Shown here piece by piece: positions 16,198 to 43,157 of a DNA stretch of 64,000 nt (its first letter is position 1; every line of letters begins with the position of its first letter). The notes under the pieces were generated by a model. That model saw nothing but the letters and a program-made list of their open reading frames with translations, did not search any database and was not told the DNA's origin. The translations under genes were made by a program, and so were the position numbers. Location of the stretch: assembly GCF_000156175.1 (NCBI RefSeq), contig NZ_GG692710.1:3428-67427 (forward strand), in the 5' to 3' direction. Source of the stretch: Collinsella intestinalis DSM 13280 (GTDB taxonomy: Bacteria > Actinomycetota > Coriobacteriia > Coriobacteriales > Coriobacteriaceae).

Positions 16198-16233
16198 CTT
16201 CAATTGAGGGCCCGACGCAGGAAATCCCGATGT

Positions 16234-16279
16234 GGCGACTGCCCCGATGTAGGGGCGCCCCCACATCGGGGCAGTCGCC
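16234..16279. repeat. 17-bp perfect inverted repeat with palindromic loop
   Basis: GGCGACTGCCCCGATGT (16234-16250) is mirrored exactly at 16263-16279. The loop itself contains the palindrome GGGGCGCCCC. The 46-nt hairpin lies 36 bp after addA but has no T-run, so it is a repeat element or mRNA-stabilising hairpin rather than a standard terminator. Confidence 0.8.
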
Positions 16280-16293
16280 AATTGAGCCCAAGA

Positions 16294-16348
16294 TTGTCTA
16301 TGGTTATCTTCCCTTTGGCGGCTTCAGGGGGAAGAAAGTCATAGACAA
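16294..16348. repeat. Second inverted repeat downstream of addA
   Basis: TTGTCTATG (16294-16302) pairs with CATAGACAA (16340-16348), and inner arms CTTCCC (16308-16313) with GGGAAG (16329-16334). The element is of unknown role and adjoins the larger hairpin. Confidence 0.65.
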
Positions 16349-16460
16349 ATCCCCAGCTGCCATAGGCGGTCTCTGGTCACCATAGGTAATTCTTTGCTGC
16401 CAAAGGTAATCTTGCGCCGTGCGATGAGAGCGCCCATCGCTTCCAGGCAGCTGGGAGATG

Positions 16461-16504
16461 AAAAATTCAGCCCAAGTTCGCATGGTGTCGACCTTGGGCT
16501 GAAT
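16461..16504 (-). terminator. Rho-independent terminator of the three-gene accessory operon
   Basis: ATTCAGCCCAAG (16465-16476) and CTTGGGCTGAAT (16493-16504) form a perfect 12-bp stem. Read on the minus strand the stem runs into TTTTT. It lies 34 bp after the stop of the 80-residue gene. Confidence 0.88.
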
Positions 16505-16538
16505 CTAAATCACCCTGCGATGAGGGGGACTGGAATAA

Positions 16539-16781
16539 TCAGAGTCTGCGATATCGGGTGTGGTTGTTTTTGCCGCGCTCAATCTTTTCGATAGGGGGAA
16601 GCGCCCCACTCTGGTATTTCTTGGAGAAGAACACGCCAAAGCTGATTTTCTCTCCACGTTCCAGGTTGCTCCATGCGGTTCCCTTGAACAGGGACTTCAC
16701 TTCGAAGACTGTTCTAGGCTCAAGCTGATCAATCGCTTTTTGTGCCTCGTTGAACATTTCATCGAAATTTGCAGATCCCAT
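16539..16781 (-). CDS. Small DUF1413-like protein
   Basis: An 80-residue protein, last gene of a three-gene operon. The pattern TVFEVKSLFKGTAWSNLERGEKISFGVFF followed by a basic tail with NNHTRYRR fits the DUF1413 family of small proteins, whose members share F-x-V-x-x-LF and W-x-x-L-x-x-G-x-x-x-x-FG. Function is unknown. It starts 4 bp after the upstream gene stops, so it is co-translated. Its base composition is lower in GC than flanking housekeeping genes, consistent with acquisition. Confidence 0.7.
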   Translation of the reverse strand: MGSANFDEMFNEAQKAIDQLEPRTVFEVKSLFKGTAWSNLERGEKISFGVFFSKKYQSGALPPIEKIERGKNNHTRYRRL

Positions 16782-16785
16782 TTTG

Positions 16786-17913
16786 TCACCGCTTGGGGAG
16801 TCGTTTGAGTTGATCGAGGACTTTGTCGCGCTTCTCCCTGTGCCTCTTTGCGTCTTCAGTTGCTTTCTCGATGCCTTTTTCGAGCTCGTCCTTTTGTGCT
16901 TTTAGCGCTCCATTACCGAACAACTTGAAGCCAGGGAGTGAATCGAGCTCGTCCGCAAGACGTTTTGCTTCTCGGTCGTATGCGTTTGCCTCATTGGCAT
17001 ACTTCTCGGCTTTCTCATCCACAATTGCCTTGAGATCGGGGTTGGCTTCCCAGTAGGTTGCTATCACCTGCTTGATCGCGCTTCTGAAGGCGCCGGCGAT
17101 GAGTCCCGCTGCATCCGGGTGTTCGGCCTTCAGCTTCTCCTTGCACTCCTCGAGTTCAGCAGCGGAATTGATGCGGCCCTCCCTAGTCTCGTTGATTATC
17201 CATTTTTGGACCTCGCTTCTATGGCGATCGTAGTCCTCGGCCTCCTGTTTGCGCGTCCGTACGCACAGTGGAGTCATGCAGGGTATTTCGCCAATAAAAG
17301 GTTCTCCGCATGTGGGGCAAGTCACTTTGCGGCCGGCTTGGCGCAGGGAATCAAGATAATCCTTGATGGCGGGTTCTGGTTCATAGGAGTATTCAACCTG
17401 TTTGCCGATGGATTGGGAGATCGCCGTGATTCCGGCACCCCTGAAGTTGAGGGGCCAGATGTACGACTCGTTGTAACGGCAGTCATCGAAGGTGAAGACG
17501 GTGGTCCCCTCATCGCTGCCGTTCCTTAGCTCGAATGATAGGATGCGTGAGCCAAAGCATCCGCTTTTTCCACCGTGGGCAAGCTCTCTGTCGCTCAAAA
17601 TCACGTTTCGTATGGTGGAGGGATACAGGGAAGAGTTCAGTGCAATGATTTCAACGACGTCGTCCGGCAGCGTTGTGGGAATGAGGTTCGTTGTGATTTG
17701 GACTTCCAATTTCGTAGTCAAGCCATCTGGGAGCCAGGTATCAAGGACGCCCCCCATTTGAAAGCTCGAAGCATCTCTCAGGTATTTTTCATGATCATCT
17801 CCATCGCGAGAGGTGTACCGGAGCGAAACAACATCGAGTGCCGGCGTGGTTGCGAAATAGTCCAGCGCCGCCTGAAGCAATTCGCGGAGGGGGAGATCGA
17901 TGGCGACTTTCAT
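16786..17913 (-). CDS. Unknown protein with zinc-finger-like motif and C-terminal coiled coil
   Basis: A 375-residue protein that I do not recognise. The first 190 residues look like a mixed alpha/beta globular domain. A cysteine cluster follows at about 198-217 (CPTCGEPF...C-x4-C, spacing C-x2-C-x10-C-x4-C) that could bind zinc. Residues 225-375 are highly charged and helical, with two heptad-like stretches (KAEKYANEANAYDREAKRLA and KGIEKATEDAKRHREKRDK). There is no signal peptide and no membrane segment. It sits between a zinc-ribbon protein and a DUF1413-like protein, with 4-bp gaps on both sides, so the three are probably made together. The shared cysteine motifs suggest a zinc-dependent assembly. 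A defence or stress role would be a guess. Confidence 0.7.
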   Translation of the reverse strand: MKVAIDLPLRELLQAALDYFATTPALDVVSLRYTSRDGDDHEKYLRDASSFQMGGVLDTWLPDGLTTKLEVQITTNLIPTTLPDDVVEIIALNSSLYPSTIRNVILSDRELAHGGKSGCFGSRILSFELRNGSDEGTTVFTFDDCRYNESYIWPLNFRGAGITAISQSIGKQVEYSYEPEPAIKDYLDSLRQAGRKVTCPTCGEPFIGEIPCMTPLCVRTRKQEAEDYDRHRSEVQKWIINETREGRINSAAELEECKEKLKAEHPDAAGLIAGAFRSAIKQVIATYWEANPDLKAIVDEKAEKYANEANAYDREAKRLADELDSLPGFKLFGNGALKAQKDELEKGIEKATEDAKRHREKRDKVLDQLKRLPKR

Positions 17914-17917
17914 CTTC

Positions 17918-18133
17918 TTACCTCACATCGTAGGAGCGCGAGAAACCGCACTTGCCGCAATAGTAGGTGGACTTCTTCTTTCCTAAGGCTCCAGCGGCGA
18001 GGCCGAGTGGGCCAAAGGCGACGGCGCCAACCGCTGCCTTTCCAGCACTGAAGCCTTGCTTGTCGGAGCCGACATATTTCCAGTCATACATCTCGCCGCA
18101 GACTGGGCATTTGATGGGCGCGTATTCTTTCAT
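17918..18133 (-). CDS. Small zinc-ribbon protein with a glycine-rich hydrophobic middle
   Basis: A 71-residue protein. CPVCGEMYDWKY near the N-terminus and YYCGKCGFSRSYD near the C-terminus make a split zinc ribbon (CxxC...CxxC). Between them lies FSAGKAAVGAVAFGPLGLAAGALG, a Gly/Ala-rich hydrophobic hairpin like those seen in small phage and plasmid zinc-ribbon proteins. AAAGGAGCGTCC precedes the ATG at 18133. It is the first gene of the operon, and its promoter carries a homopolymeric tract (18170-18197). Function unknown. Confidence 0.72.
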   Translation of the reverse strand: MKEYAPIKCPVCGEMYDWKYVGSDKQGFSAGKAAVGAVAFGPLGLAAGALGKKKSTYYCGKCGFSRSYDVR

Positions 18134-18169
18134 GGACGCTCCTTTGCACGTGGATGGCTACATGGGGTC

Positions 18170-18197
18170 AAAGTACCTCGGGGGGGGGGATTGTCAA
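18170..18197 (-). promoter_or_regulatory. Promoter with a ten-base homopolymer in its spacer
   Basis: On the minus strand, a perfect TTGACA (18192-18197) and TACTTT (18170-18175) are separated by 16 bp. Ten of those are consecutive C residues (G on the plus strand, 18180-18189). Slippage in the tract would change the -35/-10 spacing, a classic arrangement for on/off switching. It drives the zinc-ribbon operon. Confidence 0.7.
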
Positions 18198-18536
18198 CGG
18201 CCATTCATGCGGGCCTGGGGCGTGTGCCGCTCATTCGGGCTCGCGTTTTGATGCCCGAGTGATGCTTGCGGCAACAATGGGTGTGGCCGTGTTGGTCTGA
18301 AAGTATGCGGCAAGGGGGGGACGGTGCCAGTGCCCATGAAGGTCATAATTGCGCAATTGCGTCGCATCGCGAAATTCGATGCAGAGGTCTGCGCGAGATA
18401 TGGGGGCTTATCGGCGAAGGTGAATCGAACACGCTGTGAACCTTTGCGTGAGGCATGTGCGCACATGCGTTCTGTCCGCGCACTCGGTTAGAATCGATAC
18501 CGTTCGAAAGGACCCCGTTCCGACGTGCATCTCAAG
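18198..18536. other. Gene-free stretch before dnaE
   Basis: I see no convincing ORF, repeat or RNA in this interval. It separates the divergently transcribed accessory operon and dnaE. The short palindrome AATTGCGCAATT at 18346-18357 is the only local structure. Confidence 0.5.
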
Positions 18537-18567
18537 CCTCAATTTAGGGACAGTCCCTAAATTGAGG
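18537..18567. repeat. Dispersed palindromic element, perfect copy
   Basis: CCTCAATTTAGGGAC and its exact reverse complement flank a single A: a 31-bp perfect palindrome about 55 bp upstream of the dnaE start. It shares its arms with the imperfect copy at 3726-3758. It could be an operator or a mobile palindromic repeat. Confidence 0.75.
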
Positions 18568-37922: not shown

Positions 37923-40900
37923 CTAGTTCAACTTGATGGCGTCGTTATGGGAAAGCTCGCTCACCAGGCGCTTGCGGGCGTCGGCGAGATAGGCGTCGAT
38001 TTCGGCCTCGCTGTGTAAGGTCTTGGGCAAAAACGCGGTTGAGCGTTGGAGCTCGCGCACTTTGCGCGGGCGCTCGGGCGCGATGGGGGCGTGGCTGGTG
38101 GTGACGACCTGCCCGGTGCTTGCCGGCGCGGGGCGGTGGATGCGCTCGTGTTCGCGGTCGAGGTCCCCAAACAGGCGCGCCTGATCGCCTGTGAGCTGTG
38201 CGCTCACGGCGTCGAGCTGGGTGAGCGTGGCGGCGTCGCGCACCGCGCCGGTGCGGGCGCGTTCTCGCTCGCCCACGCTGCTCAAGGTGACACCGAGTTC
38301 CTCGCCATGCTGCCTCACGCTGGCGAAGATGTCCTCGATCTGCGCCTTAACTTCCTCGCGCTTGCCCTCGAGCAGTTTTGCGTGAGCGTTTTCGATCGTC
38401 TGCATGGCGGGGACGAGGTCGGTGATCTGGCTATAGGGCCTCTCGCTGCCCAAAATGCGCTCGATGTTCTCGATCGCCTTGGTCGCCCCCTCGTGGGCGG
38501 CAAGGTAACTGCGGTCTTGATCGAGGCGCTTGAGCAGGTTGGAGGCGTTGTCGTAGATGCGCTGCATGTCGGGGAAGAACCCGTCGACGTCCTCCAGGTC
38601 CTCGCCTGCGTCGCACAGGTCGTTTTCCGCCTTGGCGATGGCGCGCAGCAAATCGCCGGAGTCGCCGCGGATGGCGAGCAGGTCCTTGATGAGGGCGGCG
38701 GCGTCTGCCACCGTGCCAAAGCCCGGGTAGTTGCGGTTGCGGCTGTACGCTCCGGTGATGAGCTCGTTCAGTCCGTCCTGGCGTTCTTGCAGGGCGTTGC
38801 GGCACGCCGTGGCTAGCGGCTCCTCCTCGGTGGGGAGGTCGTGAACGCGGCAGAGCGTCTCGATCGCGCGGCGGGCGCGGGTCATGTCTCCTGCCGAGGC
38901 GCGCACGCGCATCTCCACCACGGCGCGCTGCGTCATACTCAGCTTGCGAAGGTAGTCGATCATCTTGGCGTCACGCGCGTCCACGACCTGCCCGGCGTAG
39001 CTCACACGTGCCTCGCCGGCGGCGATGAGCTCGGCGACCACGGCGGCGATGTCGCGCTCGCGCCATCCATAAGGGGCCGCCTGGTAGCGCTTCTGCAGGT
39101 CGTCCATGGACACGCTCACCGCGCGCATGGCCTGGGCGCCAAGGAACGTGCGCACGTCGTCGATGGCGCGCTTGTTGGGCTCGATGCCCTCGAGCGCAGG
39201 CGCGGCCCCGTTCAGGACCTGCCTGATTTGGGCATCGTCGTCGTAATTGCGGTCGATGTAGCCGAGCTTGGTGTAGACGGCGTCCACCAGCTTTGCCGTG
39301 CATTGCTCGATGAGCTTCTTGGCGGAGTTGGTACCCGTGATGGTGACCTGGGACCCGCCGGCGTAGAACTCGCCGCGGCGCACCGCCTCTTCCATGAGCG
39401 CCTGCGCCTTGGTCTCGAGTGCGGTGCGCTCCTGCTGCTTGGCGCGGATCACGTCCTGCTGGTTGGCGGGCAGGTTGGCGATGATGGTCGCGCTCGCGAA
39501 CTGCTGGATGCGCGCCGCCTCCATAAGGCAGCTGTAAAAATCGATCTCGCTGGAGAGCAGCACGATCGCCTCACCGCGGCTCGAGCGCAAGATGAGCTCG
39601 TCGCGGCTGGGGGCGTCGCTGCCGTCCATGCGGGCGAGCACGCGCAGGGTGAGGCCGCCCGCGTTGTTCACGCGGGTCTCGTCCAGCCACTCCGCCACGG
39701 GGAAGTTGTTCTTGCCCACGGTGATCTTGGGCGTCTCGAAGATCTGGCCGAACACGATCTCGGCCGCCTTCCTGGTGAGCTTGGCCGCATCCACCTGGGT
39801 GCGCGCGATCTGGCGGGCGATCTCCTGCTCGTCATCGGTGAGGAACAGGTAGCACTCGCCGTTGCGCGTGATGTAGTTCTCGCGCTCCAGGCGCTCGAGC
39901 GCGGCCTGCACCTGCTCGCGCACCTCGGCGCGGTTGGCGCGCAGGTCGTCGGCCATGAGGGTGGCGATGTTGTCCACGTTGCCCGGCATCTCCTGGCTCA
40001 CCCATTTGATGAGGAACAGCAGCTTGAGCACGGCGACGTCGTATTCCTCAAGGCCCGCGCCGTCGCGCGCGGCGGCCGCGGCGCGGTCGATCACACGGCG
40101 ATGGTAGCCCTCGAGAAAGGATTGCACGGTGTTGTAGAACATCCACAGGGGGGCCAGGGCGTGCTCGTCGCGGTCCTCGAGCGCCTGGGCGACTTCCTGG
40201 AAGCCCGAGAGCATCGAACGCTCGGCGCTCAGGTGCTTGCCCGAGCTGCCCTGGTTGCGCAGGCCGTTGATGACGTCCTGCATGAGCTTGAACTGGTAGC
40301 CCACGAATGGGAACGCGTCCGCGAAGCTCTTCGCGCCGTCATAGCCGCCAAGGTCGTTGCGCGCTCCCTTGAAGGTGAACAGGTTCTTGAGCACGGTGGC
40401 GTTCTTGCCGTACTCCACGGTGAGCAAGTCATGCGCGTGCTCGTTCTTGGAGAGGATGCGCCGGCGGATGACCTCGCCCGCGCCGGTGCTCGAAAGCGAC
40501 AGGCGGGTGTTGAACCGCCCCTGGATCTTGGAGAAGTCCTGCCCCGCCACGGTGGTGATTTCGTCGATGGCCTCCTGGCTCGTCACGACCACCCACACGC
40601 GGCCGGCGCACTGCGCGCCCAGGTCCTCCACGATGGTCTGGAGGTTGAGCATGAGGCTCGTGTCGGTGCCGATGTACTGGCCCACCTCGTCGACCATGAA
40701 CAGCAGACGAAACTCGCCGCCCTCCTGCTCGGCGCGCTCGGTCACGTATTGATTGATCTGGCGCACGAGCCAATCGATGGTGAACTCGAACTCCTCGGTG
40801 TTGTCGAACCAGCGCTCCGCTGCCTCGCGGCTCTTGGCCCCCGCCTGCTCGAGCGCGTCGATGACGGCGTCGCTGTTGAGGTCATAGGCATCGCGCTCGT

Positions 40901-41477
40901 CGAGCCATTCGGTGCCCGTGATCTGGCGGTACGCTGCGCGGAACGCCTCGGTCTTGCCCTTCTGGTCGATGTCGCGCTCCAGGCGCGCAAGCTTGAGGTC
41001 CTCGCCGTAGAACCCGAGGTGCTCGAAGAACACGCGGGCGAAGATGCGCAGGATGGCGGTCTTGTCCTTGTTAGACGGGCCCTTGGAGTCGATGTTGAAC
41101 AGGATAGTCTCGGTGGGGACGTCCACGGCACGCTTTGCCTTCGCCTCGATCATGGGGTCTTCGAAGCGCGGCGCAATGATGTCGATGGCCGGGTGCCCGT
41201 TTGCCGTCTGCCCCGAGAGCAGGTACGAGAGCATCTTGAGGAAGTGCGATTTACCGGAACCAAAGAAGCCCGAGATCCATACACCGATCTTGTCGGTGGG
41301 GGCGTCGAGCGCGCGCTCGTAGGCGTCGAAGAACGTTGAGAAGTGCCCGCGCAGCTCGTTGGTCACGACGTATTCGGCGAGCTCCTGCTCGATGACCTCC
41401 TCGTCGTTCTGCTCGATCTTGATGACGCCGTTGATGTTGCGGTCGATGTCGCGTTCGAACATGTCCTGGATGCGCAT
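37923..41477 (-). CDS. brxC: BREX P-loop ATPase BrxC
   Basis: An 1184-residue P-loop protein, the normal size for BrxC. MFERDIDRNINGVIKIEQ at the N-terminus is a family signature, and GFFGSGKS (residues 70-77) is Walker A. LLFMVDEVGQYIG is the Walker B region. Long helical segments follow to the C-terminus. BrxC is thought to be an ORC-like ATPase that powers or assembles the BREX complex with PglX, PglZ and BrxB. AAAGGACTCCCC precedes the ATG. It lies 54 bp after brxB and 10 bp before pglX-N. Confidence 0.95.
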   Translation of the reverse strand: MRIQDMFERDIDRNINGVIKIEQNDEEVIEQELAEYVVTNELRGHFSTFFDAYERALDAPTDKIGVWISGFFGSGKSHFLKMLSYLLSGQTANGHPAIDIIAPRFEDPMIEAKAKRAVDVPTETILFNIDSKGPSNKDKTAILRIFARVFFEHLGFYGEDLKLARLERDIDQKGKTEAFRAAYRQITGTEWLDERDAYDLNSDAVIDALEQAGAKSREAAERWFDNTEEFEFTIDWLVRQINQYVTERAEQEGGEFRLLFMVDEVGQYIGTDTSLMLNLQTIVEDLGAQCAGRVWVVVTSQEAIDEITTVAGQDFSKIQGRFNTRLSLSSTGAGEVIRRRILSKNEHAHDLLTVEYGKNATVLKNLFTFKGARNDLGGYDGAKSFADAFPFVGYQFKLMQDVINGLRNQGSSGKHLSAERSMLSGFQEVAQALEDRDEHALAPLWMFYNTVQSFLEGYHRRVIDRAAAAARDGAGLEEYDVAVLKLLFLIKWVSQEMPGNVDNIATLMADDLRANRAEVREQVQAALERLERENYITRNGECYLFLTDDEQEIARQIARTQVDAAKLTRKAAEIVFGQIFETPKITVGKNNFPVAEWLDETRVNNAGGLTLRVLARMDGSDAPSRDELILRSSRGEAIVLLSSEIDFYSCLMEAARIQQFASATIIANLPANQQDVIRAKQQERTALETKAQALMEEAVRRGEFYAGGSQVTITGTNSAKKLIEQCTAKLVDAVYTKLGYIDRNYDDDAQIRQVLNGAAPALEGIEPNKRAIDDVRTFLGAQAMRAVSVSMDDLQKRYQAAPYGWRERDIAAVVAELIAAGEARVSYAGQVVDARDAKMIDYLRKLSMTQRAVVEMRVRASAGDMTRARRAIETLCRVHDLPTEEEPLATACRNALQERQDGLNELITGAYSRNRNYPGFGTVADAAALIKDLLAIRGDSGDLLRAIAKAENDLCDAGEDLEDVDGFFPDMQRIYDNASNLLKRLDQDRSYLAAHEGATKAIENIERILGSERPYSQITDLVPAMQTIENAHAKLLEGKREEVKAQIEDIFASVRQHGEELGVTLSSVGERERARTGAVRDAATLTQLDAVSAQLTGDQARLFGDLDREHERIHRPAPASTGQVVTTSHAPIAPERPRKVRELQRSTAFLPKTLHSEAEIDAYLADARKRLVSELSHNDAIKLN

Positions 41478-41531
41478 GGGGAGTCCTTTCTGGAGCGTTT
41501 CTGATGGTGCGATGTACGGAATGAGGGTGGG

Positions 41532-42134
41532 TTACAAAATGTTGAATGCTCGGTAATAGTTGCCGTCGTTTATCGAGCCGAAGAGCCTGAGCGTCTGCCC
41601 GTCGTATACGCCCGGGTAGAACAGGACGACGGGGATGTGGGAGAAGATGGGCTGCGCGCACTCGAGGATCTGGTGCGCCCGCGTGATGGGGTAGGCGCGT
41701 CCCACACCCGAGATGAGCAGCACGTCGCGACCGGGTTGGGGGTCGCCGTGTGCCGCCGCGAAGCGCTCGCGCATGTGCTCTACGAGCTTTGCCGGCGAGG
41801 CGATGGTCTGCAGGCGTACGAGCAGGGCGTCCGATCCGCGCTTGCGCTCGAAGGCGGGGAGCTTTTCCATGAGTCCTCGTTGCTCGCACAGGTCGCAGAT
41901 GAGCTCCCACAGGTCGATGTGGGTGATGCGGCCGGGCGCGAGGCCTGCGGGATCCTCGCTCAAAAGGTCGCGCAGGAGGGCTCGGACTTCCAGCTCGGAG
42001 CCGGCGTCGTAGGGGAAGACGTGGAAGGGGACCTCGTTGCCCAGTCCGTGGCAGGCGAGGAATTCGGGGTCGCGGAGTTTGGACCGGATGACCTCGAAGC
42101 TTTGGGTGAGGGTGGGGGAGTCGATTGCGTTCAT
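41532..42134 (-). CDS. brxB: BREX protein BrxB (DUF1788)
   Basis: A 200-residue DUF1788 protein. IRSKLRDPEFLACHGLGNEVPFHVFPYDAG and HIDLWELICDLCEQRGL, with LISGVGRAYPITRAHQIL and PVVLFYPGVYDG near the C-terminus, are typical of BrxB. It is a core BREX component thought to bridge BrxC and PglZ-PglX. Its ribosome binding site is a run of eight G (42140-42147 on the minus strand) that begins inside the brxA stop codon, so expression may depend on the exact tract length. Confidence 0.93.
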   Translation of the reverse strand: MNAIDSPTLTQSFEVIRSKLRDPEFLACHGLGNEVPFHVFPYDAGSELEVRALLRDLLSEDPAGLAPGRITHIDLWELICDLCEQRGLMEKLPAFERKRGSDALLVRLQTIASPAKLVEHMRERFAAAHGDPQPGRDVLLISGVGRAYPITRAHQILECAQPIFSHIPVVLFYPGVYDGQTLRLFGSINDGNYYRAFNIL

Positions 42135-42139
42135 GTGTA

Positions 42140-42147
42140 CCCCCCCC
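42140..42147 (-). promoter_or_regulatory. G8 homopolymer serving as the brxB ribosome binding site
   Basis: Eight consecutive G on the minus strand follow TA of the brxA stop and end 5 bases before the brxB ATG. Slipped-strand changes would alter Shine-Dalgarno spacing. Confidence 0.6.
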
Positions 42148-42773
42148 TATAGCGCGAGGCCGAACGCGGGCAGGATGCCGGCGTCGCCGTTCTCGCGTAT
42201 GAGGTTTTCCAGGTCGTAGTCGAGCAAGAGCGTGCTTAGCTGCTCCGTCTTGCGCTCGTACATCCCGCATTGTTCGAGGCATTGGGCGAGCACCTGGCGG
42301 ATCTTGTTGAGGGTGGCGGGGCTCCAGGTGGCCACGCGCTCGTCTTGGGCGCGCAGGCCCTCGAGGAACGTGGCGATCTCGGTTTTGCCCAGGTGCATGT
42401 CGAGTAGGGAGAATTTACTTTCCACGACGCACGTCATGAAGTCCCAAACCAGGCGGTTGTCGCGCATGAGGGCGTAGAGGTTAGCCTGCCTGAGCTGCTC
42501 GGTGGTGCCGTGCGCGATGAGGCCGGTCAGACGGTCGCGCCGATCCGGGTCGCTCGAGAGCGCGTCGAGCCTGCGCGCGCAGGCGCGCGCGATGGAGCCG
42601 ACCTCACGCTCGGTGGGGTATTGGAATAGATTGTTTTCGAGGATGTGCGCGGCAAGGGCGCGGGTGTCGAGGAAGGCACGATCCTCGAGGCGCAGGCGGG
42701 CGACCGTGCGGGTCTCGTCGACGAGCCACTGCTCGCGCGTGATGGAGCCGCGATAGGTGGTGGGGGCGCTCAT
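42147..42773 (-). CDS. brxA: BREX protein BrxA (DUF1819)
   Basis: A 208-residue DUF1819 protein, first gene of the BREX operon. ITREQWLVDETRTVARL, LENNLFQYPTEREVGSIARAC, YALMRDNRLVWDFM and the C-terminal LLDYDLENLIRENGDAG match BrxA. Homologues are small helical DNA-binding proteins. I chose the ATG at 42773 (GCGGGGG upstream); an in-frame ATG at 42794 is equally weak in binding site, so the first seven residues are uncertain. No brxR/WYL regulator precedes it. An 11-base homopolymer lies about 95 bp upstream. Confidence 0.92.
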   Translation of the reverse strand: MSAPTTYRGSITREQWLVDETRTVARLRLEDRAFLDTRALAAHILENNLFQYPTEREVGSIARACARRLDALSSDPDRRDRLTGLIAHGTTEQLRQANLYALMRDNRLVWDFMTCVVESKFSLLDMHLGKTEIATFLEGLRAQDERVATWSPATLNKIRQVLAQCLEQCGMYERKTEQLSTLLLDYDLENLIRENGDAGILPAFGLAL

Positions 42774-43157
42774 GGACGGCCCCCGCTCGTGCATGCCGCA
42801 CCGCGGGCGCGAAGGGTCCTGCCTGCGGGAGGCGTGCCGCCCGCCGCAGCGCTAGTTAGGCGTGGCCGGGGGGGGGGGTTCTCAGAAACGAGGTATCAAA
42901 CGTTCGCATGATGATGGTCACGCTGCGCACCCCAATCGTGGATCGTCGACATACATGGGTATCAGTGTAGCCCAAACGGCATCCGTTCCGGCCCTGCTGC
43001 TCACGGCAAGAGGGTAGCGGTCCGTCCGGACAAATTATCGACTCGCACCCCGGATGTTCCCATGCGGACAATTGATTGACCGTTCGCGGGGTGCGTCGGG
43101 GCTTTCTGCGCACGTGCTATCCTTGATTGGTTACACCTCAACACGAAGGGACCCGCC
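42774..43157. other. Divergent intergenic region between brxA and fhs
   Basis: This 384-bp stretch has no supported gene. It holds the G11 tract (42868-42878), the presumed BREX promoter upstream of it (not recognisable to me), and the fhs promoter. AAGGGACCCGCC at 43146-43157 is the fhs ribosome binding site. Confidence 0.6.
42868..42878. repeat. Eleven-base G homopolymer upstream of brxA
   Basis: Eleven G on the plus strand (C on the brxA strand) lie in the region where the brxA promoter or leader must be. Tracts of this length are prone to slippage. Confidence 0.75.

Follow-up and report, generated by a model that had tools for sequence, protein, structure and literature searches.

In the stretch of Collinsella intestinalis DSM 13280 analyzed here (64,000 nucleotides, hereafter the window), a homopolymer of ten C lies between a perfect −35 box and a weaker −10-like box upstream of an accessory three-gene operon. 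This layout is real and is unlikely to be a product of chance. We suggest that it might constitute a length-tunable promoter of the fetA/porA type, which would drive the operon and switch by slippage of the tract; we regard this reading as evenly balanced between right and wrong.

Read 5′ to 3′ on the minus strand, the region consists of TTGACA, AT, ten C, GAGG, TACTTT, a further 36 nt and the ATG of the first gene of the operon. The initial annotation had placed TTGACA and TACTTT 16 bp apart with ten C inside, and direct reading of the minus strand reproduces this exactly. The elements are located as follows.

18192..18197, minus strand: predicted −35 box TTGACA, read directly, matching the consensus at six of six positions
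18180..18189, minus strand: C10 homopolymer in the spacer (G10 on the plus strand), exactly ten bases
18176..18191, minus strand: 16-bp spacer AT-C10-GAGG, the spacing favored in the genus
18170..18175, minus strand: predicted −10 box TACTTT, matching the consensus at three of six positions (T, A, and the final T) and thus having A2 and T6
18139..18145, minus strand: ribosome-binding site AAAGGAG, read directly, 5 nt 5′ of the ATG

In promoters of the fetA/porA/opc type, a homopolymer at least about eight bases long separates −35 from −10, and the present spacer contains C10 within its 16 bp. The GC content of this organism is 63%, and exact TTGACA occurs nine times on both strands of the window, the −35 box being one of these occurrences.

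The operon downstream of these boxes is compact, with gaps of 4 bp between its three genes, and it lies with the predicted promoter in a segment between addA and dnaE.

17918..18133, minus strand: gene 1, a 71-aa split zinc ribbon with a glycine-rich hydrophobic middle, in which C8, C11, C58, and C61 are invariant in 17 relatives
16786..17913, minus strand: gene 2, a 375-aa protein with a CPxC motif and a C-terminal coiled coil, without detectable relatives
16539..16781, minus strand: gene 3, an 80-aa DUF1413 protein, by PF07205 profile match
16199..18376, no strand assigned: accessory addA–dnaE segment that holds the operon and the predicted promoter, defined by alignment to the sibling species G028

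The contents of the operon agree with its earlier description as encoding zinc-ribbon, 375-aa, and DUF1413 proteins, given the four invariant cysteines of gene 1 and the match of gene 3 to PF07205 (E 1.1e-13; 51.5 bits at a gathering cut-off of 25; profile positions 2–69 of 69), which places gene 3 in the DUF1413 family. No solved relative was found for DUF1413. Relatives of gene 2 were absent from the genus genomes (n = 45), GTDB contigs, plasmids, phages, and viral contigs, and a phage or plasmid origin was rejected on the lack of matches to this 375-aa protein in the last three collections. Gene 2 shows a weak SbcC-like coiled-coil match; its predicted structure, with a mean pLDDT of 46, is too poor for a fold search, and the C-terminus is helical in this low-confidence model. 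The relatives of gene 1 are mostly from Clostridia, with one in Gordonibacter. Several of them have a promoter of the TTGAC(A/T)-17-TATAAT type at −68 to −117, and the pair described here is at −64. Inheritance of the tract along with gene 1 was rejected, as no G/C run of at least 7 occurs in the readable 400 bp upstream among the 17 relatives (L057 has no upstream sequence).

The operon is missing from 44 of 44 congeners, with one weak gene 1 match in G026. The closest sibling species, G028 (DnaE N-terminus 99%), aligns up to 16198 and resumes at 18377, and only about 65 bp joins its addA end and dnaE upstream region; therefore, 16199–18376 is an accessory segment that was either gained here or lost in G028. 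Between the operon and dnaE, a perfect palindrome, AATTTAGGGACAGTCCCTAAATT (18541–18563), and the element GGGGGGGACGGTGCCAGTGCCC (18311–18334) look like REP-type repeats, and the palindrome is also present beside addA and dnaE in G039. An apparent 3′ remnant of a gene occupies 18371–18440, and a longer version lies upstream of dnaE in G039; we presume that this gene might have encoded a nucleotidyltransferase-substrate-binding HEPN protein. Because of the remnant, the addA–dnaE gap appears to be a hotspot for gaining and losing genes.

Scored with a hand-made sigma-70 matrix across both strands of the 64-kb window, the promoter-like site ranked 4th among 127,920 positions, and its score of 15.0 was twice that of the second-ranking site upstream of the operon (7.5). 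When the flanks were shuffled and the run was kept, equally good bracketing boxes arose in 2 of 5000 shuffles. A stricter promoter scan, which needs at least four of six matches per hexamer, listed no site at the TTGACA/TACTTT pair because the −10 box has only three. The run itself is also improbable: Markov models of order 1–5 predict 0.05–0.15 G/C runs of at least 10 per 64 kb, and two were observed, one of length 10 at 18180 and one of length 11 at 42868 (for this genome, tract statistics draw on the window and on searches by pattern). Across 45 whole genus genomes, the pattern TTGACA-N0..6-C7+-TANNNT matched once, at the 18180 tract, and the reversed control pattern gave no match. With this single occurrence of the C design, a TTGACA–polyC cassette recurring across the genus was rejected. 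Apart from a 7-G site in G038, the G version of the TTGACA–tract design was restricted to G021, where it has a 20-bp spacer and precedes a secreted protein. In viral contigs, TTGACANNC8 gave 57 matches; matches of this kind, exact over 14 bases, are to be expected by chance in a collection so large.

To judge the effect of a change in tract length, the preferred spacing must be considered. A 17-bp optimum is the E. coli rule, and the initial annotation had applied it to this site. In this genome, 6 of 16 TTGACA-N14..20-TANNNT pairs have a 16-bp spacer; the reversed control gave 11 matches in total, so part of these pairs is due to chance. With the stricter TTGACA...TANAAT pattern, for which the control gave few matches, 16 bp was found in 13 of 27 distinct genus promoters and 17 bp in 2, among the matches listed and with orthologues merged by hand. 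An optimum of 17 bp appears doubtful for this organism, and we replace it with 16 bp, the mode of the genus pairs among the matches listed. Given this mode, ten C is probably the best length already, and the sequenced length probably corresponds to ON; both gain and loss of a C should weaken the promoter and lower expression. The earlier interpretation is thus corrected in its optimum and otherwise supported in part, namely with regard to the bracketing promoter-like pair, its placement before AAAGGAG and the ATG, an operon that is accessory, and a design like that of fetA/porA/opc.

For the favored mechanism, we infer that the pair is used as a promoter, that slippage of the tract is frequent, and that expression depends on tract length. 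The boxes would form a weak-to-moderate sigma-70-type promoter driving all three genes of the accessory operon. In C10, slipped-strand mispairing would add or remove a single C and yield spacers of 15, 16, 17, or 18 bp, which would alter the contact with the sigma factor and, with it, transcription. The outcome might be graded or on/off expression of the operon in a fraction of cells; the sequenced state would be ON, and tracts of at most 9 C or at least 12 C would be low or off. Frameshift control of gene 1 was rejected: its open frame starts at 18157, and an in-frame stop separates the tract from the ATG.

Several features count for such a switch: the perfect −35 box, the best score among the upstream sites, the rarity of comparable boxes in the shuffles, and the right distance to the ribosome-binding site and ATG. 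Moreover, the promoters of several gene 1 relatives lie at a similar distance, and tract lengths differ between orthologues at other loci of the genus. In contrast, the poor −10 box and the uniqueness of the TTGACA and poly-C design among 45 genomes count against it, as do an operon that is not a known type of surface or defense gene and the many tracts of at least 9 that lie outside promoter spacers in this genome. In addition, most near-gene tracts of the congeners have G on the coding strand, whereas the present tract is C. A literature search for Collinsella with phase variation returned passing mentions only.

Alternatively, the promoter would be real and the tract a passive, near-neutral run that may slip slowly and shift promoter strength slightly and is not maintained as a switch. 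We give this explanation considerable weight, short of preferring it, since spacer sequence is weakly constrained, the genome has 11 runs of at least 9, several of them without a promoter or gene 5′ end nearby, and the favored 16 bp makes the present state look like a stable optimum. However, any one-base change of the spacer would alter the promoter, the lengths of other genus tracts do change, and a high mutation rate is expected for C10 runs in most bacteria. For a poly-A tract, mutation about 1000-fold above point mutation has been reported (PMC2831843).

We consider it unlikely that the pair matches by chance and that the tract plays no part, with the operon transcribed from elsewhere, either by another sigma factor or from a start inside 18134–18400. 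The three of six matches of the −10 box and the empty result of the strict scan would agree with this, whereas the 2 of 5000 shuffles, the rank of 4 of 127,920, and the lack of any other upstream site above half the score of the pair argue otherwise. An erroneous run length from sequencing or assembly is highly improbable. Homopolymers are error-prone, and four congener assemblies (G008, G032, G033, and G034) hold artefact-like hundreds of G/C 10-mers or runs of 20–40. These assemblies have 78 to 868 C10 positions, with the runs of 20–40 in G008, and their C10 excess probably represents assembly artefacts. However, the present genome has only five runs of at least 10 in 1.81 Mb, in three contigs, so there is no general artefact in it, and the other window tract (42868) has an orthologous counterpart in G039.

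That second tract accompanies a BREX operon. The BREX genes of the window occupy 37923–42794 on the minus strand (PADLOC matches: BrxA, 2.2e-41; BrxB, 1.1e-52; BrxC, E 0), and the G11 run at 42868–42878, read as C11 on the strand of the genes, is located 73 bp upstream of the first brxA ATG. This upstream tract is C11 here versus C9 in the sister species G039, with conserved flanks. A second brxA type, present in eight congeners (L203–L210), has a coding G run just after the start codon. In four species (G002, G005, G008, and G036), the run is G9 and the frame is 227 aa; in the other four (G001, G007, G032, and G035), the run is G10 and the frame is truncated to 21 aa. G9 and G10 species may differ at only 4 of 600 flanking bases, and the state does not track flank similarity. 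Based on these alleles, the coding tract of brxA is likely a frameshift switch of BREX.

Similar tracts of at least 10 are found in congeners at genes for Flp pilin, SpaA and VWA tip-pilin adhesins, a sugar transferase, a LuxR regulator, and a CAP-domain protein, as well as at the BREX genes. This list corresponds to the spectrum of genes usual for contingency loci. In several congeners, a G10 tract lies near codon 7 of the reading frame for the Flp-type pilin with DUF6273 (L186, L166, L167, L026, L024, and L177), and the adhesin, tip pilin, sugar transferase, LuxR, and CAP-domain genes have tracts of 10–12 before or at the start (L028, L037, L051, L038, L044, L192, L170, L187, L175, L184, and L045). 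The LuxR gene tract is G12 in one species and G11 in another. Furthermore, RVT_1 reverse transcriptase genes carry a tract of 10–13 near the 3′ end in this genome (L011, 367–1536, plus strand) and in three congeners (L027, L181, and L185). Another locus of this genome, L009, has a G9 run at codon 183 of a 408-aa open reading frame of ParB/DNA-methyltransferase-type appearance and is a candidate frameshift switch. Among 69 tracts, which form one listed set rather than a full census and were annotated with a crude gene caller, the bracketing promoter score reached p < 0.05 versus shuffled flanks in 12, where 3–4 were expected; one of the 12 is a masked-stretch artefact. Collectively, we tentatively propose, as something a little short of an even prospect, that G/C tracts provide genus-wide contingency, by frameshift for pili, adhesins, sugar transferases, and BREX and by promoter spacing for accessory operons such as this one.

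Should the tract switch, a commensal-type actinobacterium would hold an accessory operon under reversible control at a high rate. The Neisseria-type spacer mechanism would thereby be extended to Coriobacteriia, and the operon would join the genes of conditional benefit. The tracts at pilin, adhesin, and sugar transferase genes, together with those of brxA and its G9/G10 alleles, make genus-wide switching directly testable from existing read sets.

The initial annotation had linked this design to on/off control in pathogens, and the layout is indeed that of the phase-variable fetA, porA, and opc promoters (PMC5320596, PMC2791445). No feature seen here points to a pathogen. In the fetA (frpB) promoter of Neisseria gonorrhoeae, a poly-C of 10–14 lies between −35 and −10, and slippage changes the spacing and transcription, according to the account in PMC5320596, which cites Carson 2000. 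The present poly-C is likewise placed between the predicted −35 and −10 boxes. However, fetA is the iron-transport outer-membrane receptor of a pathogen, with variation measured among strains and in vitro, whereas this operon is accessory and known from the sequence of one genome. Similarly, the porA and opc promoters of Neisseria meningitidis have a G or C homopolymer between −35 and −10, which is thought to alter sigma-factor binding (PMC2791445, PMC3960869). These drive surface antigens with measured variation, in contrast to the present operon, for which the favored spacing appears to be 16 bp. In Gardnerella, about 70% of G/C tracts of at least 8 lie within 300 bp upstream of an open reading frame (PMC11287997). 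Gardnerella and the present organism are both host-associated actinobacteria with upstream homopolymer tracts, but Gardnerella belongs to a different actinobacterial class, and within-strain variants were compared there, whereas one genome per species was compared here. Finally, Pgl/BREX systems undergo phase variation via pglX (reviewed in PMC9122589). As suggested for the brxA tracts of this genus, BREX defense is there under reversible genetic control; the switching gene is pglX in those systems, whereas brxA is the gene that contains or follows the tract here.
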